Assembly (NCBI RefSeq): GCF_002355735.1
Contig: NZ_AP014879.1
Location: forward strand, 248,001 to 312,000
Direction of reading: 5' to 3'
Length of the DNA stretch: 64,000 bases
DNA from: Sulfuricaulis limicola
GTDB lineage: Bacteria; Pseudomonadota; Gammaproteobacteria; Acidiferrobacterales; Sulfurifustaceae
Shown: positions 3,155 through 26,258 of the stretch, one piece after another
How positions within the stretch are numbered: position 1 is the first letter of the stretch
How the letters are laid out: each line of letters opens with the position of its first letter
Translations under genes and position numbers: made by a program
Notes under the pieces: model-generated
Told to the model about the DNA's origin: nothing
Seen by the model: only the letters and a program-made list of their open reading frames with translations
Databases searched by the model: none

Positions 3155-3168
3155 GGAAACAGAAATCC

Positions 3169-4161
3169 TCAAGTCCGTGGCGTCAGCAGGTGATACAGGT
3201 TCACCACCGACAGCAATAATAGCGCGGCTACCGCATTATGTGCCGTGACCAGGCTGAGGGGCAGGCTGGTGGCGATGGCGCCGATGCCGAGAGATATTTG
3301 CAGCGCGAGGAACACCAGCATCGCGATGCCGGTGCTGCGGTAACGGCTGCCCGACCCGAGGGCGCGCCAGCCGAGCCAGGCCATATAAAGGAATGTGAGC
3401 ACCGCCCCCGCGCGATGCGCGAGATGAATGATCTTGCCGGTATCGCCGGTGATCACGGCGCCGGCATCGGTGGCCGGCAATACGCGCGCGAGGTTGAAAC
3501 TCTCGCGCCACGGGCCGTCGGTCCAGGGATAGGCAGCGCATCCGGGCAGATCGGTACAGGCCAGCGCCGCGAAATTGGCGCTGACCCAGCCGCCGAGCGC
3601 AATCTGAAAGAAGACGACGAAGATTCCGAGGAGCGCCCATGGCCGCAATTCATGTCTTGGCGTGACTCCTGTTTGCGTTGATACCGAGCGTTGCCCCAGC
3701 CACCACAACATGGCCAGCATCGCCATGCCACCGAGCAGGTTGCTGAGCGTGACCCACGGCAGCAGCGGCGAAGGCGTCTTGTAACCCAGCACCGAGAGAA
3801 ACACGGTCAGCCCCAGGACCGCGAGCGGGATCAGGACGGATTGTCCCGGTTGCCGGCGACGGCGCCAGGCCGCGACCACGATCCCCAGCACCAGCACCCC
3901 GAGCGCGGAGGCCACCAGGCGATGCGTCAGGGTGGCCCACGGCGGCACCAGATGCGCGGCGGCCAGCGATTCCGCGCCGCTTATTTCCGTTTTTATCAGC
4001 GCGTAACACGACGGCCATTCGGTGCAGCCGAGACCGCTGCCCGAGAGTCGCAGCCAGGCGCTCAGTATCACCACGATCAGCACCAGCATGATCGAAACGA
4101 ATACCAGCAGCGTGTAAAGGCCGCTGCCGGATGCCTGGCGGTGAGGGGCGTGTGTGGTCAT
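3169..4161 (-). CDS. ctaA: Haem A synthase homologue, cysteine-containing CtaA type
   Basis: A 330-residue polytopic membrane protein of the COX15/CtaA family. After the first membrane segment it carries GSGLGCTEWPSC (C46, C52), the extracytoplasmic cysteine pair known from Bacillus-type CtaA. A second pair sits in LACTDLPGC. Histidines in THRLVAS and AHRAG are likely haem ligands. The stop lies just before the start region of the second ctaA-like gene, so the two form one operon. The FNR-type box at 4326-4339 lies 165 bases upstream of this start and could act in both directions. Whether both paralogues make haem A, or one makes a variant or assists the other, cannot be told from sequence. 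Confidence 0.85.
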   Translation of the reverse strand: MTTHAPHRQASGSGLYTLLVFVSIMLVLIVVILSAWLRLSGSGLGCTEWPSCYALIKTEISGAESLAAAHLVPPWATLTHRLVASALGVLVLGIVVAAWRRRRQPGQSVLIPLAVLGLTVFLSVLGYKTPSPLLPWVTLSNLLGGMAMLAMLWWLGQRSVSTQTGVTPRHELRPWALLGIFVVFFQIALGGWVSANFAALACTDLPGCAAYPWTDGPWRESFNLARVLPATDAGAVITGDTGKIIHLAHRAGAVLTFLYMAWLGWRALGSGSRYRSTGIAMLVFLALQISLGIGAIATSLPLSLVTAHNAVAALLLLSVVNLYHLLTPRT

Positions 4162-4665: not shown

Positions 4666-5202
4666 ATGGCCCTTACCCCTCCTGCAGAACGACTGTGGTG
4701 GAAAGAACCGATCGAAGCTGTCGAGCTTTTCTGGGTCGCCATCGCGCTGGTGTGGGCGATCGTGATGTTCATCATGATGCCTTACTGGCACGTTTACGGT
4801 AAGCAGAATCTTTCCAGCGAGGCCTATCGCACCACGCCCGAGATGTATACCCAGAAAGTACAGGCGATGGTGGACAAGTACACGATCCGCACGGAAACCG
4901 CGCGCAACATGCCGGTGGTGCGCGCACCCGCGGGCGCCGACATCTACATGCTGGCGCGCTTGTGGGAATGGTATCCGGCGCTGGAGCTTGAAAAGGGCCA
5001 GACCTACCGCCTGCACCTGTCCTCGGTGGACTGGCAGCACGGTTTTTCGCTGCAACCGGAGAACATCAACGTCCAGGTCATTCCCGGCTACGAGATGGTA
5101 ATGAAAATCACGCCCAACAAATCCGGCGAATTCTCGGTGATCTGCAACGAATACTGCGGCATCGGTCATCACACGATGATCGGCAAAATTTACGTGAAGT
5201 AA
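4666..5202 (+). CDS. Haem-copper oxidase subunit II with CuA site
   Basis: A 178-residue protein with one N-terminal membrane helix (about residues 20-42) and a periplasmic cupredoxin domain. All CuA ligands are present: H125 in DWQHGFS, then C160, E162, C164, H168 and M171 in CNEYCGIGHHTM. It is short, as in ba3-type (B-family) enzymes, and has only one transmembrane helix. It would take electrons from a cytochrome c or cupredoxin and pass them to subunit I, whose gene follows after 13 bases. The intact CuA site shows that the enzyme is still an electron-accepting terminal reductase, whatever its gas substrate. Confidence 0.9.
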   Translation: MALTPPAERLWWKEPIEAVELFWVAIALVWAIVMFIMMPYWHVYGKQNLSSEAYRTTPEMYTQKVQAMVDKYTIRTETARNMPVVRAPAGADIYMLARLWEWYPALELEKGQTYRLHLSSVDWQHGFSLQPENINVQVIPGYEMVMKITPNKSGEFSVICNEYCGIGHHTMIGKIYVK

Positions 5203-5215
5203 GGAGGAGAGGCCC

Positions 5216-6910
5216 ATGGCGAATACTGCGGAATTCCGAACCTGTCCCGACACCGGCCTGCTGTTCCACAAGCCGGCCGAGACATTGATGAAACTGAACG
5301 CCGTCGCCGGCATCGTGTTCCTGGCTCTCGGCGGCGTGCTCGGCCTGCTGATGGGCCTGACGCGTTGGCCCACGGTGCACCTGTTGCAGGCGGATTCGTT
5401 CTACATGCTGCTGACTGCGCACGGCCTGAGCGTGCTGATCTTCTGGATCATTTTCTTCGAAATCGCGGTGCTGTATTTCACCTCCAGTACGCTGCTGCGA
5501 TCGCGACTGGCGACACCGCGCTGGGCCTGGCTCGGCTTCGCGCTCATGGTGGTGGGCTCGATCACGACCATGGTCTCCATCTTCCAGGGCCGTTCCAGCG
5601 TGATGATGACGTCCTACGTGCCGATGTCGGCGGAACCGCATTTCTACCTCGGCCTGATCCTGTTCGCGGTCGGCGCCCTGATCGGCTGTTTCGTGTTTCT
5701 GGGCACGCTGGTGATCGCGCGCGCGGAACGCACCTATGGGGAAGGCTCGATTCCGCTGGTCACCTTTGGCGCGCTGACCGCCTGCATCATCGCCATCTTC
5801 ACCATCGCCTCGGGCGCCATCATTTTGATCCCCACCTTCCTGTGGAAGATCGGTTACATCAACCATATCGACCCGCTGATGTACCGTATCCTGTGGTGGG
5901 GCATGGGCCATTCCTCGCAGCAGATCAACGTGTCGGCGCATATCGCCGTGTGGTACGCGGTGATGGGCGTGGTGTTCGGCGCGCGGCCGCTGTCGGAGAA
6001 GGTCTCGCGCTCGGCGTTCCTGTTGTACATCCTGTTCCTGCAACTCGCCAGCGCGCATCACCTGCTGGTGGACCCGGGCATCGGCACCGAATGGAAGATC
6101 TTCAACACCAGCTATGCCATGTACCTGGCGGTACTGGCGAGCATGATCCACGGCCTGACGGTACCGGGCGCGATGGAGGCGGCGCAGCGCAAGCGCGGCT
6201 TCAACAAGGGGCTGTTCGAATGGCTGCGCAAGGCGCCGTGGGGCAACCCGTCGTTCGCGGGCGTGTTCCTGTCGATCCTGATTTTCGGTTTCCTCGGCGG
6301 CATCTCCGGTGTGGTCATGGGCACGGAGCAGATCAACCTGATCATCCACAACACCCTGTACGTGCCGGGACATTTCCACGCCACCGTGGTGGGCGGCACC
6401 ACGCTCGCCTTCATGGCGCTGACCTACTGGCTGGTGCCGGTACTGTTCCGGCGTGAAATCATTTTTCCGTCGCTTTCGAAATTCCAGCCCTACCTGTTCG
6501 GCATCGGCATGGCCGGATTCTGTCTGTTCATGATGGGCGCCGGCACGCTGGGCGTGCCGCGGCGGCACTGGGACATCTCGTTCAGCGGCGCCATCTTCGG
6601 CCATCAGTTTCCGGAAACCGCCTACCTGCTGCTGGGCCTGACGGGCATCAGCGTCATCCTGGCGGTGATCGGCGGCGGCCTGTTCATCCTGCAGATCGTC
6701 GGCTCGGTGTTCTTCGGCAAGCGCCGCGGCGAGACCAGGGGCCCGGTCCCGCTGATCGCCGAGCCGGTGGCGCCGGGCCTGCATGGCATCGGCATCGGCG
6801 GGATTTCCGTGCCCGGCACGCTGGTGCTGGCGCTGGTGTTCCTGACCGCGTTCATCCTGTACTACTTCGTCAACTGGAAATACCTTTCTCAAGTCTGGGG
6901 ATTGGGCTGA
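5216..6910 (+). CDS. Haem-copper oxidoreductase subunit I lacking the active-site tyrosine (candidate NO reductase)
   Basis: A 564-residue polytopic protein of the haem-copper superfamily with an AAGGAGGA ribosome site. Ligands seen: H69 (low-spin haem), H232, H281 and H282 (CuB), H386 (high-spin haem) and H388 (low-spin haem). In helix VI the usual H-P-E-V-Y is H-S-S-Q-Q, so the position of the cross-linked tyrosine is Q236. Loss of that tyrosine is typical of nitric oxide reducing branches (families proposed under names such as eNOR, bNOR and sNOR), not of oxygen reductases. Subunit II, a small subunit, an SCO chaperone and an FNR box surround it. Superfamily membership is certain. NO reduction is inference. 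Confidence 0.9.
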   Translation: MANTAEFRTCPDTGLLFHKPAETLMKLNAVAGIVFLALGGVLGLLMGLTRWPTVHLLQADSFYMLLTAHGLSVLIFWIIFFEIAVLYFTSSTLLRSRLATPRWAWLGFALMVVGSITTMVSIFQGRSSVMMTSYVPMSAEPHFYLGLILFAVGALIGCFVFLGTLVIARAERTYGEGSIPLVTFGALTACIIAIFTIASGAIILIPTFLWKIGYINHIDPLMYRILWWGMGHSSQQINVSAHIAVWYAVMGVVFGARPLSEKVSRSAFLLYILFLQLASAHHLLVDPGIGTEWKIFNTSYAMYLAVLASMIHGLTVPGAMEAAQRKRGFNKGLFEWLRKAPWGNPSFAGVFLSILIFGFLGGISGVVMGTEQINLIIHNTLYVPGHFHATVVGGTTLAFMALTYWLVPVLFRREIIFPSLSKFQPYLFGIGMAGFCLFMMGAGTLGVPRRHWDISFSGAIFGHQFPETAYLLLGLTGISVILAVIGGGLFILQIVGSVFFGKRRGETRGPVPLIAEPVAPGLHGIGIGGISVPGTLVLALVFLTAFILYYFVNWKYLSQVWGLG

Positions 6911-6958
6911 CCAATCGGGTTGTAATACGCGGACCACTGGGCCGGTTCGCGTAAGGGA

Positions 6959-6985
6959 GGCCGGGCAGGCTGAGCCTGCCCGGCC
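6959..6985 (+). terminator. Stem-loop after subunit I gene
   Basis: A perfect inverted repeat (GGCCGGGCAGGC, loop TGA, GCCTGCCCGGCC) is followed by GTTCCTTTGTT. The T-run is weak, so it may attenuate or protect the message rather than stop it fully. Confidence 0.5.
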
Positions 6986-7006
6986 GTTCCTTTGTTATGA
7001 TGGTGC

Positions 7007-7873
7007 ATGCATTTGATCTCGTTAATTTCCCGTATCTGCTTGATCGCCGGCCTGCTCGTGGCGCCGGCCGCCGTGGCTGTCACATCGCATGACGCCAACA
7101 GGCACAACCCGCCGCCGGTGTCGGCGGCAGGGAGTCCGGCATCGAAGTTCGATGAAAAGGCCGCGCTCGCCCTGAGCCAGGGCGTGATCGGCAAGACCGT
7201 CGGCGATTACACGCTGACCGCGACCGACGGAAGCAAGCGGCGCCTGTCGGAGTATCGCGGCAAGCCGCTGGTGATCAGCCTCATTTACACCAGCTGCTAT
7301 CACATCTGCCCGACCACGACGCAGCATCTTGCCAAGGTGGCGCGCACGGCGCGCGGCGCGCTCGGGCAGGAGAGTTTCAATGTCCTGACCATCGGTTTCG
7401 ACACGCCCAAGGACACGCCGGTGGCCATGCGCCAGTTCGCCCGGGATCAGGGCATCGACATGCCCGGCTGGCAGTTCCTGAGCGCCGACGCGCCGGCAAT
7501 GGAAGGCCTCACCAAAGATCTCGGCTTCATTTCCTATGCCGCGCCGCACGGCTTCGATCACCTGATCCAGGCCACGGTGATCGACGCGCAGGGAAAGATT
7601 TACCGCCAGGTTTACGGCATGACCTTCGATACCCCGCTGCTGGTGGAGCCGCTGAAAGAACTGGTCTTCGGGGAACCGGTCACCCCCTCGCTGCTCTCCA
7701 GCCTCAGCAACAAGATCAAGCTGTTCTGCACGGTCTACGACCCGACCACCGACAAGTACCGCTTCGATTACTCGATTTTCCTGGGCCTTTTCATCGGCGC
7801 CAGCTCTATCGGCATCGTGAGTTTTCTGGTGCTGCGCGAGTGGCGGCGCACACGCCGTCGCCGGCAGGGTTGA
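7007..7873 (+). CDS. SCO1/SenC-family copper chaperone
   Basis: This 288-residue protein has a signal-anchor sequence at residues 5-25, then a thioredoxin-like SCO domain with the copper-binding C97-x3-C101-P motif and H185 in the FDH sequence. It also has an extra C-terminal membrane helix (about 255-278) followed by a run of arginines. SCO proteins deliver copper to the CuA or CuB site of haem-copper enzymes in the periplasm. Its position directly after subunits II and I implies that it matures this enzyme. The tail helix is a common variant among SCO proteins in ba3-type clusters. Confidence 0.9.
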   Translation: MHLISLISRICLIAGLLVAPAAVAVTSHDANRHNPPPVSAAGSPASKFDEKAALALSQGVIGKTVGDYTLTATDGSKRRLSEYRGKPLVISLIYTSCYHICPTTTQHLAKVARTARGALGQESFNVLTIGFDTPKDTPVAMRQFARDQGIDMPGWQFLSADAPAMEGLTKDLGFISYAAPHGFDHLIQATVIDAQGKIYRQVYGMTFDTPLLVEPLKELVFGEPVTPSLLSSLSNKIKLFCTVYDPTTDKYRFDYSIFLGLFIGASSIGIVSFLVLREWRRTRRRRQG

Positions 7874-7915
7874 CCCGGGCCATACTCTGTTTCCCAAACG
7901 AATATCAAAATGATC

Positions 7916-7996
7916 TTGAACCGCCAAGGCGCCAAGGCGCCAAGAAAGCGGGTTTTAGAAATTGAAAACTTGGCGTTCTTGGCGTCTTGGCGGTTG
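7916..7996. repeat. Long imperfect palindrome, family A (CGCCAAGG type)
   Basis: TTGAACCGCCAAGGCGCCAA on the left pairs with CTTGGCGTTCTTGGCGTCTT and CGGTT on the right around an AT-rich centre. Each arm is itself made of short CGCCAAG units. The same element recurs at 63428-63587. It fills the gap between the SCO gene and the cytochrome b fusion gene. Confidence 0.85.
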
Positions 7997-8019
7997 ATTC
8001 TTTTTATCAGGGTTCCAGC

Positions 8020-9615
8020 TTGATTGAGGCGCTACAGCATGCGGGCCGCCGGGCGTTTGCGCTGGTCGAGAACACCTTCGATGCCGCCTTCGGCCCCCGG
8101 ATCAACCCGTTTTATCATCTCGGGGCGCTGGGTTTTTTCTTTTTCTGGATCGTGGCCGTCAGCGGCATTTATCTCTTCATCTTTTTCGAAACCAGCATCG
8201 ACGGCGCCTACGGCTCGGTCGAATACCTGACGCACACCCAATGGTATCTCGGCGGCGTCGCGCGCAGCCTGCACCGCTATGCCTCGGATGCGATGGTGAT
8301 CGTCGTACTGCTGCATCTGGCGCGCGAGTTCGTACTGGACCGCTACCGCGGCGTGCGCTGGTATGCCTGGCTCACGGGCGTGATGCTGTTGTGGTTCCTG
8401 TACGCCTCCGGCATCAGCGGCTACTGGCTGGTGTGGGACCGCCTGGCCCAGTACATCGCGGTGGTGACCGCGGAATGGTTCGACTGGTTGCCGCTGTTCG
8501 GCGAATCCATCGCGCGCAACTTTCTCGACAGCGCGACGGTCAGCGACCGCTTCTTCTCACTGATGTTCTTCATGCACCTCGGCATCCCGCTGTTCCTGCT
8601 GCTCGGCATGTGGATCCATATCCAGCGCATCAGCCGCGCCCGGACCAATCCGCCGCGCGCGATCATGCTCGGCACGCTGGCGGCGCTGACGCTGCTGTCG
8701 CTCGTGTACCCGGCGTTGAGCCAGGGACCGGCTGATCTCGACACCGTGGTCAGCGTGGTCCGGCCCGACTGGTTTTATCTCACGCTTTATCCCCTGATCG
8801 AGGCCTGGTCGCCGGGCGCCATCTGGGCGGTGGCGGGCGGCGGCAGCTTGCTGCTGATGCTGCTGCCGTGGTTGCCGCGCCGGCGGGAGGCGGCCGCGGC
8901 CGTGGTCAGCCTGCCGAATTGCAACGGCTGCGGACGCTGCTTCGCGGACTGCCCCTATAGCGCGGTGATCATGCAGCCACGCACCGACGGGCTGCCGTAT
9001 GCCAGCCAGGCTGCGGTGGATCCGGATTTGTGCACGGCCTGCGGCATCTGCGCCGGCGCCTGTCCCACGGCCACGCCGTTCCGGCGCACCACGGAACTGG
9101 TGGCGGGCATCGACATGCCGCTGCTGCCGGTGCGCGCGATGCGCCAACGCACGCTGGATGTCATGGCCCCGCTTTCCGGGCCGGACCGCGTGCTGGTGTA
9201 TGCCTGTCGCGGCGGTAGCGACCTGGGTGCGCTGGAGACAGCGGGCGTCGGGGTGGTCACGCTGCCTTGCGTCGGGGCCTTGCCGCCTTCCTTCATCGAT
9301 TTTGCCCTCAGTCGCCGCCACGCCGATGGCGTGATGCTGGTCGGCTGCGCCGCCGGCGACTGTTACCAGCGCCTCGGCGTAGACTGGACGGAACAGCGCC
9401 TGGCGGGACAGCGCGATCCTTACCTGCGCGGCCGGGTGCCGCGCAACCGGGTGGCCACGGTCTGGGCCGGACCGCGGGACGGCGCGGAACTGGCGCGCCG
9501 GGTCGCCGCGTTCCGGGCACAATTGCGGGACATGGGCCCGACCCCGCAGGGCGGAACGCCATCCGGTTCAACTGCACAGAGCGAGATGCGCAATGTCACT
9601 TATCGAATGGGATGA
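8020..9615 (+). CDS. Cytochrome b / 2x[4Fe-4S] ferredoxin / MvhD fusion protein
   Basis: About 531 residues. The N-terminal membrane part (to about residue 285) is cytochrome b-like, with two histidine pairs 14 apart (H85/H99 and H186/H200), enough for two haems b. A ferredoxin domain follows with two cysteine clusters (starting C301 and C338). The C-terminus resembles MvhD/FrhD, the iron-sulfur delta subunit of F420-non-reducing hydrogenase, with cysteines from C396 onward and GCAAGDC. I chose the TTG at 8020 because the longer frame from 7987 begins inside the palindromic repeat. Probable role: electrons move between a soluble thiol/disulfide or flavin partner and the quinone pool. The partner is unknown. 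Confidence 0.85.
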   Translation: MIEALQHAGRRAFALVENTFDAAFGPRINPFYHLGALGFFFFWIVAVSGIYLFIFFETSIDGAYGSVEYLTHTQWYLGGVARSLHRYASDAMVIVVLLHLAREFVLDRYRGVRWYAWLTGVMLLWFLYASGISGYWLVWDRLAQYIAVVTAEWFDWLPLFGESIARNFLDSATVSDRFFSLMFFMHLGIPLFLLLGMWIHIQRISRARTNPPRAIMLGTLAALTLLSLVYPALSQGPADLDTVVSVVRPDWFYLTLYPLIEAWSPGAIWAVAGGGSLLLMLLPWLPRRREAAAAVVSLPNCNGCGRCFADCPYSAVIMQPRTDGLPYASQAAVDPDLCTACGICAGACPTATPFRRTTELVAGIDMPLLPVRAMRQRTLDVMAPLSGPDRVLVYACRGGSDLGALETAGVGVVTLPCVGALPPSFIDFALSRRHADGVMLVGCAAGDCYQRLGVDWTEQRLAGQRDPYLRGRVPRNRVATVWAGPRDGAELARRVAAFRAQLRDMGPTPQGGTPSGSTAQSEMRNVTYRMG

Positions 9616-9991
9616 GAAATTCTCCGTCGGGGTCGCGGCGGTGGATCACGAGCATCGCGAGCTGATCGGGCTCGTGAATGAAACCTACGACCGGCTGCAA
9701 CGTCCCGACGCCGGCGTCACCGTGCCGGATTTCCTGGGCGAGATTTATGCGCGCATCTCCGCCCACTTCGCGCTCGAGGAAAACCTCATGCGCGCGAAAA
9801 ATTACGCGCAGTTCGCCGAACACAAGGCGGATCACGAGCGTCTGCTGGACGAAATCCGCGATATCATGGACGATTACGAGGACGGCGACAGCGAAGCTTT
9901 CGATGAACAGCAGTTCGCGTTGCGCCTGGGGGAGTGGTTCACCGGGCACTTCCGCACCCACGACGCGCGGCTGCACCGGAATCTGGACTAA
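9593..9991 (+). CDS. Bacteriohemerythrin
   Basis: A 132-residue, four-helix hemerythrin domain protein with the iron ligands visible in DHEH (H19, H21), the HFALEE segment, EHKADH and a HFRTHD end. Such proteins bind oxygen or nitric oxide at a di-iron site in the cytoplasm. The start overlaps the previous gene by 23 bases, which argues for translational coupling to the cytochrome b fusion. Next to two haem-copper enzymes suspected of handling NO, a role in gas delivery or NO scavenging is plausible but unproven. Confidence 0.93.
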   Translation: MSLIEWDEKFSVGVAAVDHEHRELIGLVNETYDRLQRPDAGVTVPDFLGEIYARISAHFALEENLMRAKNYAQFAEHKADHERLLDEIRDIMDDYEDGDSEAFDEQQFALRLGEWFTGHFRTHDARLHRNLD

Positions 9992-10126: not shown

Positions 10127-10633
10127 ATGCTGAAAAAGATCATGCAATATTCCGGGCAGGCCCTGTTCTACGGGTTGTTTGTGGCATTTATCGGCTACTT
10201 CTCGGTGGCCCCGGCCTACGTGCATTTCCCGTCCGACCAGGCCCTGATCAAGGTCAGCTTCAGCCATGCCGGGCAACCGCTGGAGGAGTGTCGCGTGCGC
10301 ACCGCCGAGGAACTGGAAAAGCTGCCGCCCAACATGCGTCTGCCAACGCAGTGCGGGCGCGAGCGTTCTCCCGTGACGTTCGAACTGGAACTGGATGGCA
10401 AACCGGTCTACCGGGCGGAACTGCCGCCCCGGGGCCTCTCGCGCGATGGTGCCTCCACCGTGTATCAGCGCTTCCCGGTGCCGGCGGGGCAGCATCGCTT
10501 CCGCGCGCGTTTGAAAGACAGCGTGCGCGTGCCCGACTTCAACTACACGAAGGAGGCGGAGATGACCCTGGCGCCGGGCCAGGTGTTCGTGGTCGATTTC
10601 AACCCCCGTGCCGGTGGTTTTATATTTAAATAA
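10127..10633 (+). CDS. Membrane-anchored protein of unknown function in oxidase module
   Basis: A 168-residue protein with an AGAGG ribosome site and one N-terminal membrane helix (about residues 10-30). The rest is probably periplasmic and looks beta-rich, with two cysteines (in LEECRV and PTQCGR) that could form a disulfide. I recognise no catalytic or metal motif. Its place between the hemerythrin gene and a haem-copper subunit I gene, on the same strand and flanked by two palindromic repeats, suggests an assembly or accessory role for the neighbouring enzyme. That is inference from position only. Confidence 0.75.
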   Translation: MLKKIMQYSGQALFYGLFVAFIGYFSVAPAYVHFPSDQALIKVSFSHAGQPLEECRVRTAEELEKLPPNMRLPTQCGRERSPVTFELELDGKPVYRAELPPRGLSRDGASTVYQRFPVPAGQHRFRARLKDSVRVPDFNYTKEAEMTLAPGQVFVVDFNPRAGGFIFK

Positions 10634-10638: not shown

Positions 10639-10724
10639 TTGAACCACAGATGAACACAGATACACACAGATAATTAAAGTTTCTGGTTTAATCCGTGTTC
10701 ATCTGTGTTTATCCGTGGTTTCAA
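10639..10724. repeat. Long imperfect palindrome, family C (GAACACAGAT type)
   Basis: TTGAACCACAGATGAACACA on the left pairs with TGTTCATCTGTGTTTATCCG and TGGTTTCAA on the right. It ends about ten bases before the ATG of the next gene, so it may affect that gene's translation. Confidence 0.85.
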
Positions 10725-10732
10725 AAATCATA

Positions 10733-12103
10733 ATGAACCTTTCCGATTTCTCGCTACCGATTCCCGACGACGCGCGCCGCAGCCTGGCGCGCGGCTGGCT
10801 GCTGCTCGGGCTGGCCTCGCTGCTGGTCTCGGGAATTTTCTCGGTGCTGCTGGTGCTGGCGCGCGCGCCCTACGTGCAGGATTTTTTCCCGTGGGTGGAT
10901 TTTTTCCACACCGCGCTGGTGGTGCACGTGGATCTTTCGGTGCTGGTGTGGTTCCTCGCCTTTGGCGGCGTGCTGTGGAGCCTCAATTCCACGCCGCGCT
11001 TTCTCACCGCCGGCCGGCTGGCGCTGTTGCTCGCCGTGCTGGGAACGCTGGTGATGGCGACTGCGCCGTTCCTGGGCGCGGGCGAGGCGCTGATGAGCAA
11101 CTATATCCCGGTGCTGCAACACCCGCTGTTCCTGGCCGGCCTGCTGCTGTTCGCCGCCGGCACCGGCGTGCTGGTGCTGCGCGCCATGGGCGCGATCCCG
11201 CCGGTGGGCCAGTGGATGCAGGGCGCGGCGGCGCTGCGTTTCGGGCTCAACACGGCGGCGGTGTCGACGATGCTGGCGCTCATCGCCTTCGCCTGGTCGT
11301 ACTTCGCGGTTCCGGCGGCGCTCGCCGGCAAGCCGTATTACGAACTGCTGTTCTGGGGCGGCGGGCATGTGCTGCAATTCACCTACACGCTGCTGATGCT
11401 GGTGTCCTGGCTGTGGCTGGCCTCGGAGAGCCGCGTGCGTCTGGCCCTGAGCCCACGCGTGGCGCTGATCTTTTTCGGCTTCGGGCTGATCGCCGTGTTT
11501 TTCACGCCGATCATCTATTACTCCTACGCCGTGACCTCGGTGGAGCACATCAAGCTGTTCACCTGGCTCATGCAGTATGGCGGCAGCCTGGCGGCGCTGC
11601 CGCTGAGCTTGGCGCTGTTGCACGGGTTGTGGCGCGCGGAGCGCGCCGAGGGCGACGCGCAGCCGCTGCGTGCCGCCTTGATTGCCTCGATGGTCCTGTT
11701 CGGCGCCGGCGGCGTGATCGGTTTTCTCATCACCGGTACCAACGTCACCATCCCGGCGCATTATCACGGCAGCATCGTCGGCGTGACGCTGGCGTTCATG
11801 GGGTTGACCTATTATCTCCTGCCGCATTTCGGTTACCGCAAACCGGGCACGAAACTGGCCCGGCTCCAGCCGTATCTCTACGGTGGCGGTCAGTTATTGC
11901 ACGTGTCGGGGCTGGTGATTTCGGGCGGTTACGGCGTGCAGCGCAAGGTCGCGGGCGCGGCGCAGGAGCTCGACACGGTGGAGCGCGTCGCCGGCATGGG
12001 GCTCATGGGGCTGGGCGGACTGATCTCCATCGTCGGCGGCTTTCTGTTTATCTATATATGTTACCGCGCCATATGGCATGGGCGGGCACAGCGTGCGCCC
12101 TGA
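10733..12103 (+). CDS. Divergent haem-copper oxidoreductase subunit I-like protein without tyrosine or CuB histidine pair
   Basis: About 456 residues and polytopic. H65 in helix II and H343-Y-H345 in helix X match the two haem sites of the superfamily. Helix VI has H212-V-L-Q-F, so the tyrosine place is phenylalanine. In helix VII, where CuB-binding H-H is expected, the sequence reads I260-I-Y-Y263. It therefore keeps haem ligands but has a changed or lost copper site. This suggests an NO reductase-like or other non-oxygen-reducing branch. It has no adjacent subunit II of its own and may pair with the upstream module. A longer start at 10715 (GTG) lies within the repeat, so I prefer the ATG at 10733. 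Confidence 0.8.
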   Translation: MNLSDFSLPIPDDARRSLARGWLLLGLASLLVSGIFSVLLVLARAPYVQDFFPWVDFFHTALVVHVDLSVLVWFLAFGGVLWSLNSTPRFLTAGRLALLLAVLGTLVMATAPFLGAGEALMSNYIPVLQHPLFLAGLLLFAAGTGVLVLRAMGAIPPVGQWMQGAAALRFGLNTAAVSTMLALIAFAWSYFAVPAALAGKPYYELLFWGGGHVLQFTYTLLMLVSWLWLASESRVRLALSPRVALIFFGFGLIAVFFTPIIYYSYAVTSVEHIKLFTWLMQYGGSLAALPLSLALLHGLWRAERAEGDAQPLRAALIASMVLFGAGGVIGFLITGTNVTIPAHYHGSIVGVTLAFMGLTYYLLPHFGYRKPGTKLARLQPYLYGGGQLLHVSGLVISGGYGVQRKVAGAAQELDTVERVAGMGLMGLGGLISIVGGFLFIYICYRAIWHGRAQRAP

Positions 12104-12130: not shown

Positions 12131-12150
12131 GGCGGGCCGTTACACCCGCC
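12131..12150 (+). terminator. Possible stem-loop terminator before dsrA
   Basis: GGCGGG and CCCGCC form a six-pair stem with an eight-base loop, followed by CCTTCTTT. It lies 28 bases after the stop of the haem-copper gene and would separate that operon from dsrAB. The stem is short and the T-run is poor. Confidence 0.35.
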
Positions 12151-12248: not shown

Positions 12249-12341
12249 TCACAGACGCCGCGCATTTCACGATCATGTCTGCCTCGGAGCCGGCCATTCC
12301 GGCTCACGCACAAGAGTCATCCCCGTTCGTTGGAGGCACAC

Positions 12342-13568
12342 ATGAGCAAAAAAATGCACGCTACCCCCATGCTGGATCAGCTCGAAAGCGGTCCCTGGCC
12401 CAGTTTCATCACCGGCATCAAGCGCCTGGCCAAGGACAACGACATGGCGGTCGATCTGCTGGGACAGCTGGAACACTCCTACGAAACCCGCAAGGGTTAC
12501 TGGAAGGGCGGCACCGCGAGCGTGATCGGTTACGGCGGCGGCGTGATTCCGCGTTTCTCCGAGGTCGCCGAGAAATTTCCCGAGTCGAAGGAGTTCCACA
12601 CCATCCGCATCATGCCGGCGCCCGCCATGCACTACGACACTGCCACGCTGCGCAAATTCTGCGACATCTGGGAGAAGTTCGGCTCCGGCCTCATCGCGCT
12701 CCACGGCCAGACCGGCGACGTCATGCTCCAGGGTTGCACCACGGAAAACATCCAGCCCGCCTTCGACGAGTTCAACAAGCTGGGATTCGACATGGGCGGG
12801 GCCGGACCGTCGGTGCGCACCGGGATGTCCTGCGTGGGACACGCGCGCTGCGAGCATTCCTGTTACGACGAGGGACGCGCCCACCGCGAGGTGCTGAACA
12901 GTTTCATCGATGACATCCACCGGCCGGCGTTGCCGTACAAATTCAAGTTCAAGTTCTCGGGCTGCGGCAACGACTGCATGAACTCGGTGCAGCGTTCCGA
13001 CATGGCCGTGATCGGCACCTGGCGCGACGACATCCAGGTAGACCAGGCGGAGGTCAAGAATTTCGTGAAGGCCAAGGGACGCGAGTACGTGATCGACAAC
13101 GTCACCACGCGCTGCCCGACCCAGTGCCTGAAGCTCAAGGCCGACGACACGCTCGAGATCGACAACCGCAACTGCGTCAGATGCATGCACTGCATCAATG
13201 TCATGACCAAGGCGCTGTCGCCGGGCAAGGACCGCGGCGTCACCATCCTCGCGGGCGGCAAGCGCACGCTCAAGATCGGCGATCTCCTGGGAACCATGAT
13301 CGTGCCGTTCATGAAGCTGGAAACCGACGAGGATTTCGGGAAGCTGGTTGCGCTGAGCCGGAACCTCATGGAGTTCTGGGTGGAAAACGGCTTGGAGCAC
13401 GAGCGTTGCGGCGAGATGATCGAACGTATCGGTCTTAATAACCTGATCGAGGGCCTCGGCATGGAGGTGGATCCGAACATGGTCCGCCACCCCCGCACCA
13501 ATCCCTATGTCCGGCTGGACGGCTGGGACGATGAGATCGAGCGCCTGAAACAGGTCAAGGCCGGCTGA
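12342..13568 (+). CDS. dsrA: Dissimilatory sulfite reductase alpha subunit, oxidative (reverse) type
   Basis: A 408-residue DsrA starting at the ATG behind TGGAGG. A longer frame from 12222 begins upstream of the FNR box and is not the gene. C164-x5-C170 and C208-x3-C212 bind the sirohaem-coupled [4Fe-4S] cluster. A ferredoxin insert carries C258, C262, C278, C281 and C284. GYGGGVIPRF and the SCVG-ARCE pattern resemble the oxidative DsrA of sulfur oxidisers more than that of sulfate reducers, as far as memory allows. With DsrB it would oxidise persulfide sulfur carried by DsrC to sulfite in the cytoplasm. Confidence 0.95.
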   Translation: MSKKMHATPMLDQLESGPWPSFITGIKRLAKDNDMAVDLLGQLEHSYETRKGYWKGGTASVIGYGGGVIPRFSEVAEKFPESKEFHTIRIMPAPAMHYDTATLRKFCDIWEKFGSGLIALHGQTGDVMLQGCTTENIQPAFDEFNKLGFDMGGAGPSVRTGMSCVGHARCEHSCYDEGRAHREVLNSFIDDIHRPALPYKFKFKFSGCGNDCMNSVQRSDMAVIGTWRDDIQVDQAEVKNFVKAKGREYVIDNVTTRCPTQCLKLKADDTLEIDNRNCVRCMHCINVMTKALSPGKDRGVTILAGGKRTLKIGDLLGTMIVPFMKLETDEDFGKLVALSRNLMEFWVENGLEHERCGEMIERIGLNNLIEGLGMEVDPNMVRHPRTNPYVRLDGWDDEIERLKQVKAG

Positions 13569-13602
13569 GCAATACGAATTACGAATTCAACGGAGGTTAT
13601 CC

Positions 13603-14676
13603 ATGTCAGCACAACCACGCATGCCCACCGAATCCGGCACGCCGGATCATTTTCAGTACATGCATCCCACCCTGCGGCGCAATTACGGCCAATGGTCATG
13701 GCACGAGCGGCCGCGCCCCGGCGTGCTGCATCACGTGTCCCGCACCGGTGACCAGGTCTGGACCGTGCGCGCCGGAACCCAGCGGCAGATGGACGTGCAC
13801 ACCATTCGCAAGCTGTGCGACATCGCCGACAAATATGCCGACGGCTATGTGCGCTTCACCATCCGCTCCAACATCGAGTTCATGGTGGCGGATGAAAAGA
13901 AGGTGAAACCGCTGATCGAGGCGCTCACCAAGGAAGGCTTCCCGATCGGGGGCACCGGCAATTCCGTGTCCATGATCTCGCACACCCAGGGCTGGTTGCA
14001 TTGCGACATCCCCGGCACCGACGCCTCGGGCGTGGTCAAGTCGTTGATGGATGAACTGCACCAGGAATTCATTAACGAGGACATGCCGAACCGGGTCAAG
14101 ATCACGACCTCCTGCTGCCAGATCAACTGCGGCGGCCAGGGCGACATCGCCATCAACGTGCAGCACACCAAGCCCCCCAGGATCAACCACGATCTGGTGG
14201 CGAACCTGTGCGAACGGCCGAGCGTGGTGGCGCGCTGCCCGGTGGCGGCGATCCGGCCCGCCATGGTCAACGGCAGACCGTCACTGGAAGTGGATGAAAG
14301 GAAATGCATCTGCTGCGGCGCCTGTTATCCGCCGTGCCCGCCGATGCAGATCAACGATCCGGAGCACTCCAAGATCGCCATCTGGGTCGGCGGCAAGAAT
14401 TCCAACGCGCGTTCCAAGCCCAGCCTGCACAAGCTGGTGGCCGCCGGCATCCCGAACAACCCGCCGCGCTGGCCGGAGGCGGCCGCGGTCGTGAAAAAAA
14501 TCCTCGCCGTGTACAAGCAGGACGCGCACGCCTGGGAGCGCATGGGTGAATGGGTCGAGCGCATCGGCTGGCCGCGCTTCTTCGAGCTGACCGGCCTGCC
14601 GTTCACCAAGTTTCACGTCGACAACTGGCGCGGCGCGCGCGCCAGCCTCAATACCTCGGCGCACGTCCGCTTCTGA
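13603..14676 (+). CDS. dsrB: Dissimilatory sulfite reductase beta subunit
   Basis: A 357-residue DsrB with a CGGAGG ribosome site, 34 bases after dsrA. C134 and the C171-C172-x3-C176 group match the cluster ligands of DsrB. A ferredoxin domain has C235, C238, C241 and C245 in KCICCGACYPPCP. It forms the alpha2-beta2 enzyme with DsrA. The genes usually found next, dsrE, dsrF, dsrH, dsrC and the dsrMKJOP membrane complex, are not in the window. Either they lie elsewhere, or the foreign island starting near 15 kb has separated them. Confidence 0.95.
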   Translation: MSAQPRMPTESGTPDHFQYMHPTLRRNYGQWSWHERPRPGVLHHVSRTGDQVWTVRAGTQRQMDVHTIRKLCDIADKYADGYVRFTIRSNIEFMVADEKKVKPLIEALTKEGFPIGGTGNSVSMISHTQGWLHCDIPGTDASGVVKSLMDELHQEFINEDMPNRVKITTSCCQINCGGQGDIAINVQHTKPPRINHDLVANLCERPSVVARCPVAAIRPAMVNGRPSLEVDERKCICCGACYPPCPPMQINDPEHSKIAIWVGGKNSNARSKPSLHKLVAAGIPNNPPRWPEAAAVVKKILAVYKQDAHAWERMGEWVERIGWPRFFELTGLPFTKFHVDNWRGARASLNTSAHVRF

Positions 14677-15256: not shown

Positions 15257-15679
15257 ATGGCGATAAAGAAACAGGAATTTTACGAGGGAGCAGCACTTCA
15301 CCTATTAGCTCGCACGGGTGAGATCATGAGTATTCAATACGAGCCCCCATTCTTTTTCTTAAATAATCAGCTTTTGGTCCACCTGAAATACAGCACGCGA
15401 GGTCGTAGTCCATGGGGGTTCTCGTTTACTGCCGACGAACAATTGCTTTTGCGGGCTAGAGCTTCTGAATTTAAAACCGTGATTGGACTGATTTGCGGCG
15501 CCGACGGTGTGGCTGCATTCACGTACGATGACTACCTTAAGGTCGCTGCTCCAAGAAAATCTACGATTCATGTAGCTTGTTATCGTCTACATGGTGAGCA
15601 TTACGAGGTGAATGGCCCGGATGGAAAGCTAGACGGAAAGGTGGCGCCATCAGATTGGAAAAGAATTCTTCAGTTTTGA
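15257..15679 (+). CDS. Unknown protein, first gene of Z1 defence operon
   Basis: A 140-residue protein, ATG start, stopping 12 bases before the Z1 gene. Visible features are KKQEFYEGAALHLLAR at the N-terminus, an aromatic stretch YEPPFFFLNN, then alternating hydrophobic segments with KYSTRGRSPWGFSF. The acidic and lysine residues (E, E, then K-Y-S) recall a small alpha/beta nuclease-like fold, but I cannot identify a PD-(D/E)XK motif with confidence. Its codon use matches the AT-richer island, and operon position suggests a role with the Z1 ATPase, perhaps as nuclease, specificity or sensor subunit. Function unknown. Confidence 0.8.
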   Translation: MAIKKQEFYEGAALHLLARTGEIMSIQYEPPFFFLNNQLLVHLKYSTRGRSPWGFSFTADEQLLLRARASEFKTVIGLICGADGVAAFTYDDYLKVAAPRKSTIHVACYRLHGEHYEVNGPDGKLDGKVAPSDWKRILQF

Positions 15680-15691
15680 GGTAATAACGCA

Positions 15692-17638
15692 ATGAAACAT
15701 CGTGACCAAGTCTTGGCGTTGTTGCAGAAGCAGATTGGCAATGCTGACGAGGTCAGGGAAATTAGCGAGACCGCTGAGGAGGTCATCAGTAAATGGGTCA
15801 ATCCGTTGAGCGGAGGGAAGGAAGAAATAAACGGCCTTATCTATGGTTTGGTTCAGAGCGGAAAGACTGGGGTCTTAACGGTCACAGGTGCTATGGGTGC
15901 AGATGAGGGATACCGAACAATCGTCATTCTGACTTCCGACATTGATCCGCTTTATCAGCAGACTCTAGGGCGAGTACAAGAGGCTTTCCCTGGAATCGAT
16001 ATTATCGGAAAAAAGGATTTTAAGGATGCCGATGCTTTCATTCAGCGAATTAAGGGTGAGACCTGCGCTATTGTCACATCTAAGAATTCCGGTCTGTTAA
16101 GGACTCTCATTGAAAATTTTAAAAAGGGCAGGGTGCGGGGGCTTACCTGCTTGATCATCGACGACGAAGCAGATCAAGCCAGCCTTAACACACGAGAACG
16201 CCGTGCCGACGGCACTAGGAGTACGATTAACGACAGAATTGCGGAGTTGCGCGGCTTTTTCGAAAAGAACACTTATTTACAGGTAACGGCTACTCCGCAA
16301 GCCCTGTTCCTGCAGACCCCCGGGCATGATTTCAGACCTAAGTTCACCGTCTTGAGCCATCCCGGTTCTGAATACGTTGGGGGTGAGGATTTCTTTGGAG
16401 ATAGATCGAATCTCGTCAGGGAGTTCGATTTGAACGACATCACTATCCTTGCTCCCGGTCCCCAGCCGACCCCAACGCTTGATATTCCAAAATCCCTTCT
16501 GCGAGCTTTGGATACGTTCATGGTTGCTGCGACGTTCAAGCGGAAAAAGGAAGCCGATCAAAATTGCGCTTTCCTTTGTCACGTAAGCACCCGCACAGAC
16601 GACCATAAACACATCGTCGATCTACTGCGGAAGTACAAGACAGACTTGGCCGCTGGTGTGAAGGGAGGGAATCATACGATCATTAAGCGGCTTAAGGCCG
16701 CTTATGACGATTTAGCATCGACCCATGATGGATTAAGGGCAACCAGTTTTGAAGAACTGGTGGAAGCTATTGGATTTTTCTCGCCGGGTATCACCGTCAA
16801 ATTAGTCAACGGTGAGACAGACGAGGATGTGGCCGTCAGATCGCCTTACAACCTTTTTGTCGGCGGAAACAAACTTGGCCGTGGAGTCACCATAAAGAAC
16901 CTGCTGGTCAGCTACTATGGACGTAACCCGAAAAAGCCACAAGCTGACACGGTGCTACAGCATGCCCGCATGTACGGTTATCGCAGGAAGGATATCGGGT
17001 TGTTGAGGTTGTTTCTTCCTCGGGAGCTACACATCGTCTTCAAGGCCATCAACAAGATGGAACGCGGATTGCGTGACCTTATCGCCCGGAATCCGACAGA
17101 AGAATTCCGCGGGGTATACGTAGAGAGCGGACTTAACCCGACACGGAAAAACATTTTGGCACCAGGTGCAATTGGAGTGTACTCCGGTGGCAGCAATTAC
17201 AACCCTGCACAAATCATGCGTGATGAATCTGTAAAGGTATCTACAGAGAAGTTAAATAAGAAGCTGGAAAGTATACCTGATGAGAGTTACGCAGAGATGC
17301 CTATTGAGGATATGCAAGCTCTTATCCGATTGACGATCCCAGATCAGGCACAATCCGAACATGTTTGGAATCCAATTGCGGTCGCAGAATCGCTCGTTCA
17401 ATTCGCCAATCTCCATAAGCAAACGACAGGCTACGTCTATGTAGATCGTGATCGTGAACTTGAGGCTAACCGCCGTGAGACTCAAGGAATCTTGACTGGT
17501 GGTGAAGCTGATTTAGTGCCACGTGACAAAATCACCATATTTATGCTTAGGACCGGCCATGCTCGCGGGAAAAATCCTGCTTGGTGGCCACAGATTAGAT
17601 TTCCGGATGGACGCTATGCGTTCGCTTTTGCGATTTAA
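15692..17638 (+). CDS. Z1-domain superfamily II-type ATPase of a restriction-like system
   Basis: A 648-residue protein with ribosome site GAGG. The N-terminal P-loop ATPase has Walker A GLVQSGKTG (about 52-60), Walker B LIIDDEAD (about 153-160) and a helicase motif III-like TATPQA (about 200). The Z1 signature GGNKLGRGVTI near residue 395 is followed by QHARMYGYRR. Z1 proteins are known from comparative genomics of restriction-modification operons, beside cytosine methyltransferases, Vsr-like nucleases and MORC/MutL-type ATPases (Iyer and Aravind's work). Here the MORC-type partner is absent. It would be the DNA translocating or remodelling component. Biochemistry of the family is poorly known. 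Confidence 0.9.
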   Translation: MKHRDQVLALLQKQIGNADEVREISETAEEVISKWVNPLSGGKEEINGLIYGLVQSGKTGVLTVTGAMGADEGYRTIVILTSDIDPLYQQTLGRVQEAFPGIDIIGKKDFKDADAFIQRIKGETCAIVTSKNSGLLRTLIENFKKGRVRGLTCLIIDDEADQASLNTRERRADGTRSTINDRIAELRGFFEKNTYLQVTATPQALFLQTPGHDFRPKFTVLSHPGSEYVGGEDFFGDRSNLVREFDLNDITILAPGPQPTPTLDIPKSLLRALDTFMVAATFKRKKEADQNCAFLCHVSTRTDDHKHIVDLLRKYKTDLAAGVKGGNHTIIKRLKAAYDDLASTHDGLRATSFEELVEAIGFFSPGITVKLVNGETDEDVAVRSPYNLFVGGNKLGRGVTIKNLLVSYYGRNPKKPQADTVLQHARMYGYRRKDIGLLRLFLPRELHIVFKAINKMERGLRDLIARNPTEEFRGVYVESGLNPTRKNILAPGAIGVYSGGSNYNPAQIMRDESVKVSTEKLNKKLESIPDESYAEMPIEDMQALIRLTIPDQAQSEHVWNPIAVAESLVQFANLHKQTTGYVYVDRDRELEANRRETQGILTGGEADLVPRDKITIFMLRTGHARGKNPAWWPQIRFPDGRYAFAFAI

Positions 17639-17639
17639 T

Positions 17640-17669
17640 TTGACACGAAAAAATTCTCCCCGTGATAGT
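17640..17669 (+). promoter_or_regulatory. Candidate sigma-70 promoter of the methyltransferase
   Basis: A perfect -35 TTGACA (17640-17645) and GATAGT (17664-17669, four of six matches) are 18 bases apart. A separate promoter for the methyltransferase would let DNA be protected before the other activities appear, as is common in restriction systems. Confidence 0.4.
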
Positions 17670-17693
17670 TTTTATGTGGAATAGTGCACAATT

Positions 17694-18758
17694 ATGCCAG
17701 CCAAAAAACAGAAAGACGGACGTAAAAAAATACAAAAGGCGCCACGCGCTATTGATTTATTTTGTGGATGTGGGGGCCTCACTTTAGGCATAAAACAGGC
17801 TGGTTTTAATGTTGTCGGAGCTGTGGAGATTGACTCGCTGGCGGTACAAACCTACAAAGTAAATCATCCCGAAGTTCAGGTTTGGCATAAAGATATCCGC
17901 AAACTTACGTCTCCTCAGATCCTAAAGGCACTTGGTCTGAAACGCGGCGAACTCGATCTTCTTGCCGGATGTCCACCATGCCAAGGTTTCAGTGCGATAC
18001 GTCGGCTCAATGGCGGACGCCGTATCAGAGATGAGCAAAACGATCTGATCTTTGAGTTTCTCCGCCTCGTTAGAGGACTTCGACCAAAGGCCATCATGAT
18101 GGAGAACGTACCCGGCCTTGCAGACAATGCACGTTTGCCGAAACTCAAATCTGCGTTGAGGCAGTTGGGCTACATCGTGAATGTGAAAGTGAAGGATACC
18201 CGCAATTTCGGCGTACCTCAGCGGCGACGCCGGCTCATTCTCCTGGCTGGTTATGGTGCCGAAATCCCTTTTGCGGCACCCGCTCGTCGCATTCACACCG
18301 TAGGAGAGACGTTTGCCAAACTTGGAAAACGTCGTGCAAAGCGCGACGTTCTGCATAATCTGCCCGAACAGCGTAGCGAGAAGGTAAAACAACTCATCCG
18401 GTTGATCCCCAAGGATGGAGGCAGTCGAATAGATTTGGACAAAAAATGGCAGCTTGAATGCCACCGGAAATGCGATGGTTTCAGTGACGTTTATGGACGC
18501 ATGAAATGGAATGACGTTGCGCCGACTATCACCGGCGGTTGCTGCAATCCATCCAAGGGACGGTTTCTCCATCCAACAAGAAACCGCTCGATCACTCTGC
18601 GAGAAGCCGCGCTGCTTCAGAGTTTCCCACCTGATTACTACTTCTCTCTCGAACGTGGGAAATACCCTGCTGCTCAAATGATTGGTAACGCCCTGCCCCC
18701 GGAGTTCATTCGTCGACACGCTACTCAGATTGCGAGAGTCTTAAAACGACTTTCGTGA
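17694..18758 (+). CDS. DNA (cytosine-5) methyltransferase
   Basis: A 354-residue C5-cytosine methyltransferase with motifs in order: I (DLFCGCGG, residues 21-28), IV (GCPPCQGF, catalytic C96), VI (MENVPG, near 140), VIII (QRRRRLIL), the target-recognition region after it, then REAALLQSFP and QMIGNALPP (IX/X). It methylates a specific DNA sequence that cannot be read from the protein. It has a candidate promoter of its own and overlaps the helicase gene by four bases, tying it to the downstream genes. AT-richer than the chromosome around it. Confidence 0.95.
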   Translation: MPAKKQKDGRKKIQKAPRAIDLFCGCGGLTLGIKQAGFNVVGAVEIDSLAVQTYKVNHPEVQVWHKDIRKLTSPQILKALGLKRGELDLLAGCPPCQGFSAIRRLNGGRRIRDEQNDLIFEFLRLVRGLRPKAIMMENVPGLADNARLPKLKSALRQLGYIVNVKVKDTRNFGVPQRRRRLILLAGYGAEIPFAAPARRIHTVGETFAKLGKRRAKRDVLHNLPEQRSEKVKQLIRLIPKDGGSRIDLDKKWQLECHRKCDGFSDVYGRMKWNDVAPTITGGCCNPSKGRFLHPTRNRSITLREAALLQSFPPDYYFSLERGKYPAAQMIGNALPPEFIRRHATQIARVLKRLS

Positions 18759-21700
18759 AGTTCGAGCGCACCATAATAAATATGGCTGACTTGAAACAAC
18801 TGCTGCTTAATAAGCTTACCCCTCGGCAAGCAGATGCTGTGCAATCCCCGAAACGGCGTGTACTTGTCGTTGCCGGTGCGGGCTCAGGTAAAACTGAGGT
18901 AATGGCGAGGCGCATCGCTTGGTGGGTGGGAGTTGAAAATGTGCCGAAAGACCAAATTGTCGCCTTTACATTCACGGATCGCGCAGCTGAGGAGATGAAG
19001 TTTCGCATCCGTACTTGGCTTGGGAAAGTCACGCCAAAAGGCGAGGAAGTCGCGCTTGGTGGAATGTATGTGGGAACGATTCATGGCTTCTGCCTTGCCA
19101 AGATTCGGGAGTTTTGGCCCGATGAGTATCATAACTATGACATTCTGGACGAAAGTGCACGCGCGGCACTGATACTTCGCGGATTTAATGGCGTGCTGGC
19201 CTTGAGAGAGCTACGCGCGGCGTTACCAAAACGCCAGGATGGTTCTCAGGCTAGTCAATCGGAAACCTTCGAGCAATTCACGCAAGCCTATGACCAGCTT
19301 CAAGAGCATAACCGGTTCGCAGTTCGCCTGCCAAAATCACCTCCTCCGATTGAACTTGGCGAAGCGGAGGAAGAGTGGTGCAAGAAGGCAAAGCTTCTTA
19401 CCGACGTTGGTTCTTCAGAAAGCGCAAAAGCGCTAGCCGTTTCCGCCGCCCGCTACTACGCCTATCTGCGCTGCCGGCGATTTCTGGATTTCAGCACGTC
19501 ACAGGCAGAGTTTATTCGCTGCCTGGAAGCTGATAAGGAAAGACGAAAGGAATTGCAGAAATCGAATGTTCATCTCGTTGTCGATGAGGTTCAGGACATC
19601 AACCCAATTCAAATGCAGCTCATCCGTCTATTGACTGACGAATCTGGCAGGCTTATTTCTGTCGGCGACCATAGGCAATCTATTTACGGTTTTCGCGGGG
19701 CTAAAGTAGAGCTGATCGCCGAGCTTTGGGAAGAATTCAAAAAGGACAAGGACGCCGAGATTGTTGATTTGCAGGAAAACTTTCGTTCGACACAACGAAT
19801 CATCCACGTTGCAAACAAATGGGCGGAAACAATCGGATCGGTCAGATCGATGGAAACACTCGCTATGAAGCACGGGAGTAAACATCGAACCGACCATCAC
19901 CCTTCACATGTTGCGTTGATAGGTTTTGATAAACGAATTGACGAAGCTCAATGGATTTCGCAAGCAATTCGCGAAATTGTTCCGACCGAAGCGCAAGGTG
20001 CGTTGCACGATAAGCGCGACGGTAAACATCGTGGGCTTACACTTTCCGATGTTGCCATATTGGTTCGTTCGTCCACGGACGTTCGCACATATATGCGAAC
20101 TCTAGAGAAAGCCGGTATTCCTTCGATTGTCCGAGCAGGCCCTGATCTTTTTTCGCAGCCTGAAGTTCTGTTTCTCATTGGCGCAATCGGAATTACTGCG
20201 GGCATTGACCAGTTTTACGGTTCTAAAATCGGAAATAAGAGCCTGCCGAAACGTATTGAGTCTGTCCTTGCTTGTGCGCCTGAGCCAGAAGCTGTTCTTC
20301 GTGCAGCGGCTCGACAATTGCGATCGTCCCAACTCGCGATGAGCCGTGAGGTAGAAGACAGAACGGTTCTTGCTGCCACAATGATTCGCGAGAGGATCGA
20401 GGGCAAGTCATTTCACACAGGACAAACGAAGATACTGAGAACGCAGGGATTGAGAAATTTTCTTGAACGGAAACAGGAACTGCGTCGTCTTTTTCCGCAG
20501 CAGCTTTTTCATTGGCTGCTTTCGGAAGCGGAAGTGGAAAACTGGGACACCTGTGAGGGGAGGGGTCAGGCCGCGATGTATCACTTGGGCGCTCTGAGCG
20601 GGTTGATTACGGGAATCGAAACACCGGGCTGGACAAACACGAAATCATACAAATGGCAGATCATCGGCCTCTGCCAGTATGGCGCGGAAGATGGCCGCGC
20701 GAAAGAGCAGCCGCTCATGGTGCAGCCTGAAGCTGTCACGATCAGCACAATTCACGCGGTCAAGGGATTAGAGTTTCCAGCAATATTTTTGGCTGATGTT
20801 TGTGCTCGCCGGTTTCCCTCAAATAATGCTCGTCAAAAGAAGAAACTGCCGTTGGGTGAAAAAATATCCCATGATATTGATGTTGAGGGACTTTCTGATA
20901 ACGAAAATCACGACGGCGAAAGGCGTTTGATGTATGTAGCGTTGACTAGAGCGGAGAGATTTCTATTTATAAGCCACTCTGGGGAAGAAACGTCAAGATT
21001 CATTCAGGGGGTCAAAGGAACAAAGAGGAAACCAGGCATCCCCGGTTTACGCAAGATCATTGAAGAGTCTGGTGGTCGTGTCACAAATGATTCCGCGGCT
21101 CTGTTGCGCGAGCTTAAGTACGCACCCAAAGAACACATGCGCGATTTGCAACTCGCGACTTCGTTTTCCGACCTTCGCTACTATTTGGCGTGCCCACACG
21201 ATTTTTATCTGAGAAAAGTCATGGGATTCGCGCCAACGATTGATCAAGCATTCGGTTATGGTCGTGGTGTTCACAACCTTATGAGAGCGATTCATGCTGA
21301 ACCGCAACGTTGGGTGAGGTTGGCCGGCGATCGAAGGAAGCTTGAGGCGGAAATTCAAAAGCAAATTGACCGCGGTCTTTTCTATCTACGCTATACAACG
21401 GGCGATCCGGCAAAAAACATGTGGAAAAAGGGGATAGAGGTTGTCGCAGATTATATCGAACGTTTTGCTGGCGAACTCAATGGCCTGATGTTTGAGCCGG
21501 AGAAGGCCTTTGAAACGCTCGTCGAATATCCTGACAAGGACGGGGGAGCATTAGTTTCAGGAGCAATCGATCTTGTCAGACACGATGATCCGCCTAGAGT
21601 TACACTCATTGATTTCAAATCGGGTGATCCTGATTCCGACAAACACACGAAATTGGACGAGGAGGAAATGAAGTTGCAGCTTGCGATCTATGCGCTCGCG

Positions 21701-21988: not shown

Positions 21989-21993
21989 TACAG

Positions 21994-22407
21994 ATGGCCG
22001 ATGTATTCTCAAGTCAAAAACGCTCTGCCATCATGGCTCGAATTCGTGGCCGCGAAAACAAACGGACAGAACTTGCATTAGTAGGCATTTTGCGACGCAA
22101 TAAAATCACCGGTTGGCGACGACACCAGCCGTTGTTCGGAAGGCCTGACTTTGTTTTCCACCAGCAGCGTTTGGTTTTGTTCGTGGATGGCTGCTTCTGG
22201 CATTGTTGCCCAAAGCATGCAACACAGCCGGGGTCGAACCGCGCATTCTGGATGCGAAAACTTCAGCGAAACCGGGCACGCGACCGGCTGGTAAATCAAA
22301 CATTGCGTAAGGCCGGGTGGAAGGTGGTTCGTATTTGGCAGCACGATCTGACCCGGAAGAACGAAGTACGGGTAGTAACCCGCATCAGCAAACGCCTCGC
22401 TCTTTGA
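21994..22407 (+). CDS. vsr: Vsr-family very short patch repair endonuclease
   Basis: About 137 residues from the ATG at 21994 (MADVFSS is the usual Vsr start). An ATG at 21982 is also in frame and overlaps the helicase stop. Visible are E26, GRPDFVF with the catalytic aspartate D52, DGCFWH with H70, and cysteine/histidine residues (CCPKH) of the zinc site. E. coli Vsr nicks beside T:G mismatches made by deamination of 5-methylcytosine. Here the residue matching its H64 is aspartate, as in many non-enteric homologues. In this operon it could repair such mismatches or act as the restriction nuclease. Confidence 0.92.
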   Translation: MADVFSSQKRSAIMARIRGRENKRTELALVGILRRNKITGWRRHQPLFGRPDFVFHQQRLVLFVDGCFWHCCPKHATQPGSNRAFWMRKLQRNRARDRLVNQTLRKAGWKVVRIWQHDLTRKNEVRVVTRISKRLAL

Positions 22408-22567: not shown

Positions 22568-22647
22568 GGCCACTCTAACCTCCGTATATCAGCATTCATG
22601 CGATATTCTTTGTGGTTTACTTACGATCCTGTACACATGAGTATTTC

Positions 22648-24354: not shown

Positions 24355-24398
24355 AACCCCTTTCTCGCGCGGATTCGCGCCAATTTTCAATTTTTGAT

Positions 24399-24466: not shown

Positions 24467-24488
24467 GCGTCCACTGCAACGATTCTGA

Positions 24489-26258
<1,770 letters not shown>

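Follow-up and report, generated by a model that had tools for sequence, protein, structure and literature searches.

The question raised by this locus is what a protein of the haem-copper oxidase superfamily can do once it has lost the histidine pair that binds CuB while keeping its haem ligands. The window, a stretch of 64,000 nucleotides, comes from Sulfuricaulis limicola, whose strain HA5 is an autotrophic sulfur oxidiser (PMC5024460). The gene lies at 10733-12103 on the forward strand and encodes a predicted copper-less haem-copper subunit I paralogue of 456 aa with 12 TM helices, which together with its homologues we call family A. Translation gives the residues that drew attention to it in a preliminary description of the sequence, namely H65, H212, F216, I260-I261-Y262-Y263 and H343-Y344-H345.

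Both the twelve-helix fold and sequence homology place the protein among COX1-type subunits I. In Pfam its sole match is COX1 (PF00115, E=5.8e-14, residues 20-424); no NCBIfam model matched, and a single-sequence search of the PDB gave no direct match. The family A profile retrieved from the PDB B-type oxidase chains only. The AlphaFold model, computed as a single chain from a 58-sequence family alignment, has a mean pLDDT of 93.7 and a pTM of 0.94 and displays twelve transmembrane helices. VIA-align superposes it on oxidase subunit I chains with Z of about 30-34 (maximum 33.7) over ~420 residues, and Foldseek ranks Thermus ba3 first. Since it scores above the Pfam cytochrome oxidase cut-off, family A is likely mis-annotated today.

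The loss of the CuB pair and the Phe at the Tyr place (F216), both claimed in the preliminary description, are borne out. Helix VII spans residues 241-264 in the AlphaFold model and 261-283 in the neighbouring subunit I described below, where H281/H282 stand 20-21 residues past the helix start; helix comparison and family alignment give I261/Y262 as the matching residues. The assignment of helix VII, on which the claim depended, is thus upheld by structure and alignment alike. We aligned 84 copies of family A, collected from a one-genome-per-species scan (80 loci) and later searches, and none carries the helix VII HH. A loss specific to S. limicola is rejected, as it is common to the whole family: the absence of the CuB pair is a family trait. 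Only four histidines are near-invariant, H212, H343 and H345 (84/84 each) and H65 (83/84), and no other near-invariant His that could replace the pair was found in this alignment. Q215 is near-invariant alongside H212, and R404 and K405 are each present in all copies but one (83/84). By contrast with the three-His CuB (or FeB) site, the helix VI histidine alone remains. From the sequence, H65 and H345 would ligate a low-spin haem and H343 would be the proximal ligand of a second one, with H212 as a lone distal His; R404/K405 are predicted to form the haem propionate pair.

Could such a protein still be an enzyme? A new active-site type with another metal had been envisaged, and for this we find no ligand set. 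The lost CuB columns hold I/L/V and Y/F/A/T, the Tyr place is mostly Phe (F/V/Y/L), and a family-wide survey of polar conservation gave no conserved D/E/H/C at any of these positions. In favour of a catalytic protein whose active site holds a different metal or haem alone, a new haem-copper branch, the invariant H212 could serve as one metal ligand, and both haem sites are kept; but neither E82, N297 and Y300 nor H378 of the neighbouring enzyme is conserved in family A, and no subunit II of its own adjoins the gene, as had been noted. We regard this alternative as improbable. A haem without copper and with one distal His is possible. The further idea of a novel NO reductase branch is unsupported for family A as a two-metal enzyme; the Gln of eNOR is found in the neighbour, and family A has F216 at that place.

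This neighbour (5216-6910, forward strand) carries H69/H388, H386, the CuB triad H232/H281/H282 and, where the cross-linked Tyr would stand, Gln236. Gln at this place is the signature of eNOR (PMC8756737 Table A4), which is reported as a biochemically characterised NO reductase (PMC11388526). With this Gln, the complete triad and a cupredoxin subunit II encoded just upstream (4666-5202, forward, CuA-type motif CNEYCGIGHHTM), its product is predicted to be the eNOR catalytic subunit. It is consequently not an ordinary oxidase, given the Gln at the Tyr place. The genome (2,864,672 bp) contains only four COX1-family members, aa3, cbb3, eNOR and family A, so that eNOR is the sole haem-copper NO reductase there.

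The cluster continues on the forward strand with an SCO1/SenC-family copper chaperone (7007-7873), a single polypeptide joining cytochrome b6, two 4Fe-4S clusters and an MvhD-like FlpD domain (7987-9615), a bacteriohaemerythrin (9593-9991) and a 168-aa protein matching nothing in Pfam or NCBIfam (10127-10633), which accompanies the cluster in Gammaproteobacteria. The fusion protein, kept with eNOR across phyla, is a likely candidate for the electron donor module of eNOR. On the reverse strand, two CtaA/haem A synthase-like genes (2129-4161) were identified by reading the sequences, and homologues of them recur at further loci with eNOR or family A. Just 5′ of the family A start codon, 10640-10725 contains an imperfect inverted repeat, CCACAGATGAACACAGAT ... 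ATCTGTGTTTATCCGTGG, which has the look of a dispersed hairpin repeat.

Ten to 22 kb downstream of the family A gene lies a complete-looking gene set for the cd1 nitrite reductase NirS and haem d1 (22612-33832, forward strand), comprising NosR/NirI-like, NirS (24489-26258), NirF, NirDL, NirGH and NirN-like genes. It is the predicted source of NO for the eNOR cluster; a search of the genome for a Cu nitrite reductase gave sub-threshold matches only. None of the terms nirS, nitrite reductase and denitrification occurs in the text of the S. limicola genome paper (PMC5024460). Directly 3′ of the family A gene lie dsrAB (12339-14676), with a terminator-like hairpin at 12131-12150 in between, and dsrA likewise follows family A in three relatives (L022, L024, L026). 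Between dsrB and the nir genes, 15257-22407 encodes a Z1-domain ATPase together with a C5 cytosine methylase, a Vsr-like ORF and a large ORF of helicase type; this cassette resembles an island for restriction or defence. A plasmid origin was also considered and is not supported, as no match was obtained.

How then is family A related to eNOR? In our tree each of the two is monophyletic (100/99 each), and together they form sister clades with a bootstrap of 100 (100/98), B-type O2 reductases being separate; family A thus falls beside the eNOR clade and not inside it. The simplest reading is that family A arose by duplication before the spread of eNOR, in which case the deep Chloroflexota eNORs without family A would be losses. 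Alternatively, fast evolution of family A, whose branches are longer than those of eNOR, pulls it outside the eNOR clade. Long branches are also what a degenerating eNOR duplicate would display. Yet the frame is open in hosts of many phyla (Gammaproteobacteria, Myxococcota, Verrucomicrobiota, Planctomycetota, Rokubacteria, Nitrospinota, Nitrospirota and Chloroflexota, besides one archaeal MAG), the haem ligands are invariant, and comparison with four same-genus genomes gives a dN/dS of about 0.12-0.25, well below 1. These values are like those of subunit II and SCO, and above those of eNOR in most comparisons. As its constraint is similar to that of its cluster neighbours, 10733-12103 is not a decaying gene, and we give degeneration hardly any credit.

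Linkage of the two genes is widespread. For most of the phyla sampled, the family A gene is part of the eNOR cluster. Myxococcota, Verrucomicrobiota, Planctomycetota and others share the arrangement A-subunit II-eNOR-SCO-cytochrome b6/FlpD, and Rokubacteria, Chloroflexota and other lineages have subunit II-eNOR-A. Among 229 genomes of the host's class, eNOR was detected in 19, family A in 24 and both in 15, where chance would give 2.0 (Fisher p=3.6e-14). Of 195 Verrucomicrobiota genomes, four carry family A, each with eNOR adjoining. Over 21 loci, pairwise distances of family A correlate with those of eNOR as closely as subunit II distances do (0.961 vs 0.965), a match in divergence that could also stem from shared descent alone.

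The association has its exceptions. In nine of the 24 carriers of the class sample eNOR was not detected, several of these genomes being >95% complete (G287 at 100%). At least two of the nine encode cNOR NorB, and in one carrier that is 97% complete (G158) neither eNOR nor cNOR was detected. Conversely, family A is missing from 4/19 eNOR genomes of the same sample and, apart from G316, from the Chloroflexota eNOR genomes checked. Of 20 family A genomes chosen for the absence of a complete eNOR in the stretch around the A gene, ten had a full eNOR elsewhere; some of the other ten encode cNOR NorB, which its motif confirms in two, and several have family A next to an aa3-type oxidase operon with CtaB. 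In several Gammaproteobacteria family A adjoins aa3-type oxidase and CtaB genes; an sNOR identity of the haem-copper oxidases beside some copies is rejected, as their active site has a Tyr (SHPAVY), which makes them aa3-type. One locus (L138, 5404-8438) has a second, highly divergent copy of family A (6954-8438) that overlaps an aa3-type oxidase gene (5404-6984), and the same genome has an eNOR-linked copy in addition. Carriers without eNOR and copies beside aa3 genes make a partly independent role possible, and these data do not establish an obligate link to eNOR.

What could this independent role be? Family A may act by itself in the membrane as a haem protein, binding or turning over NO (or some other small ligand) in the manner of globins, as an NO scavenger, sensor or dioxygenase, recruited to eNOR clusters by the same NO stress. 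Its carriers without eNOR, at least two of them with cNOR, fit this idea, as does the near-invariance of H212 and Q215 despite the loss of CuB, which a distal pocket would lead one to expect. It accounts poorly for the fact that in most phyla family A sits with eNOR and has diverged in step with it, or for the lack of an electron-accepting subunit of its own; we consider it unlikely, while the foremost of the alternatives. Rather less credible to us is a function in assembly, in which family A would hold haem alongside CtaA, CtaB and SCO and deliver it to haem-A/O enzymes such as eNOR and aa3. CtaA or CtaB homologues do adjoin family A at many loci (L044, L055, L028, L053, L057, L130), and aa3 operons stand beside it in genomes without eNOR. 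But known maturation factors are already there, family A is absent from numerous genomes with aa3 and from some with eNOR, and a full, strongly conserved set of haem ligands exceeds the needs of a chaperone.

The option best supported is that of a non-catalytic partner of the first enzyme, one of those proposed at the outset: the sister clade, the shared cluster, the correlation of divergence (r=0.96) and the co-occurrence all speak for it. We thus favour, at even chances, family A as a copper-free, haem-carrying paralogue acting as a pseudo-subunit I of eNOR. H65/H345 would hold a bis-His low-spin haem and H343 a second one; for want of CuB the protein would not reduce NO by the two-metal route, and it would pair with eNOR in the membrane. 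The loop bearing the conserved His-Asn of eNOR (H378/N379), which in oxidases lies on the propionate/subunit II side, is shortened and lost in family A; having neither this loop nor a subunit II of its own, family A should not accept CuA electrons in the usual way. The two predicted haems and the lone H212 would suit a protein able to carry electrons and perhaps to bind NO; with the missing canonical CuA input, they favour the pseudo-catalytic partner. As to its role, our first guess is that it would relay electrons from the cytochrome b6/FeS/FlpD module to eNOR; as a second choice, it would hold NO on a five-coordinate haem beside H212. The two proteins might then form a heterodimeric NO reductase, with one catalytic subunit I and one haem-relay or NO-holding pseudo-enzyme, a proposal we make tentatively, its chances being somewhat below even. 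An architecture with two subunits I would, to our knowledge, be without precedent among members of the haem-copper superfamily.

eNOR has been proposed to conserve energy while reducing NO to the greenhouse gas N2O; where its electrons come from is not settled. As a paralogue conserved alongside eNOR in different phyla, family A would supply a component so far missing from the eNOR complex and a marker for eNOR-type denitrifiers, and would give mechanistic studies a haem-copper protein that lost its copper naturally. Murali et al. 2024 may describe eNOR operons. We found no description of family A in the literature searched, which left out that key eNOR paper, and only within this scope do we call the family undescribed. 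That it is inherited jointly with eNOR suggests that the NO respiration of bacteria has a haem-carrying partner not described before.

Compared with known systems, family A is closest to the eNOR catalytic subunit. The two are homologous over their full length (hhalign probability 100, E 2.7e-50) and share the haem ligands, the Q215/Q235 position, the Arg-Arg/Lys pair and the gene cluster. They differ in that family A has no CuB pair in helix VII, has Phe instead of the eNOR Gln236, has lost D453 as well as E82, N297, Y300 and H378, and has a GVQRKxAGAAQ motif specific to it; it is also shorter (456 aa vs 564 aa), and subunit II goes with eNOR, none with family A. B-type oxygen reductases (Thermus ba3, PDB 1xme, and relatives) resemble it in fold (Z about 30, 18% identity) and in the pattern of haem ligands, but the CuB pair, the cross-link Tyr and an adjacent CuA subunit of its own are all absent from family A. 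With NorB of cNOR/qNOR it shares the superfamily fold (4xyd, Z 31.0), while it possesses neither the FeB ligands nor the glutamates of these enzymes, and sequence searches lead from family A to B-type chains only.
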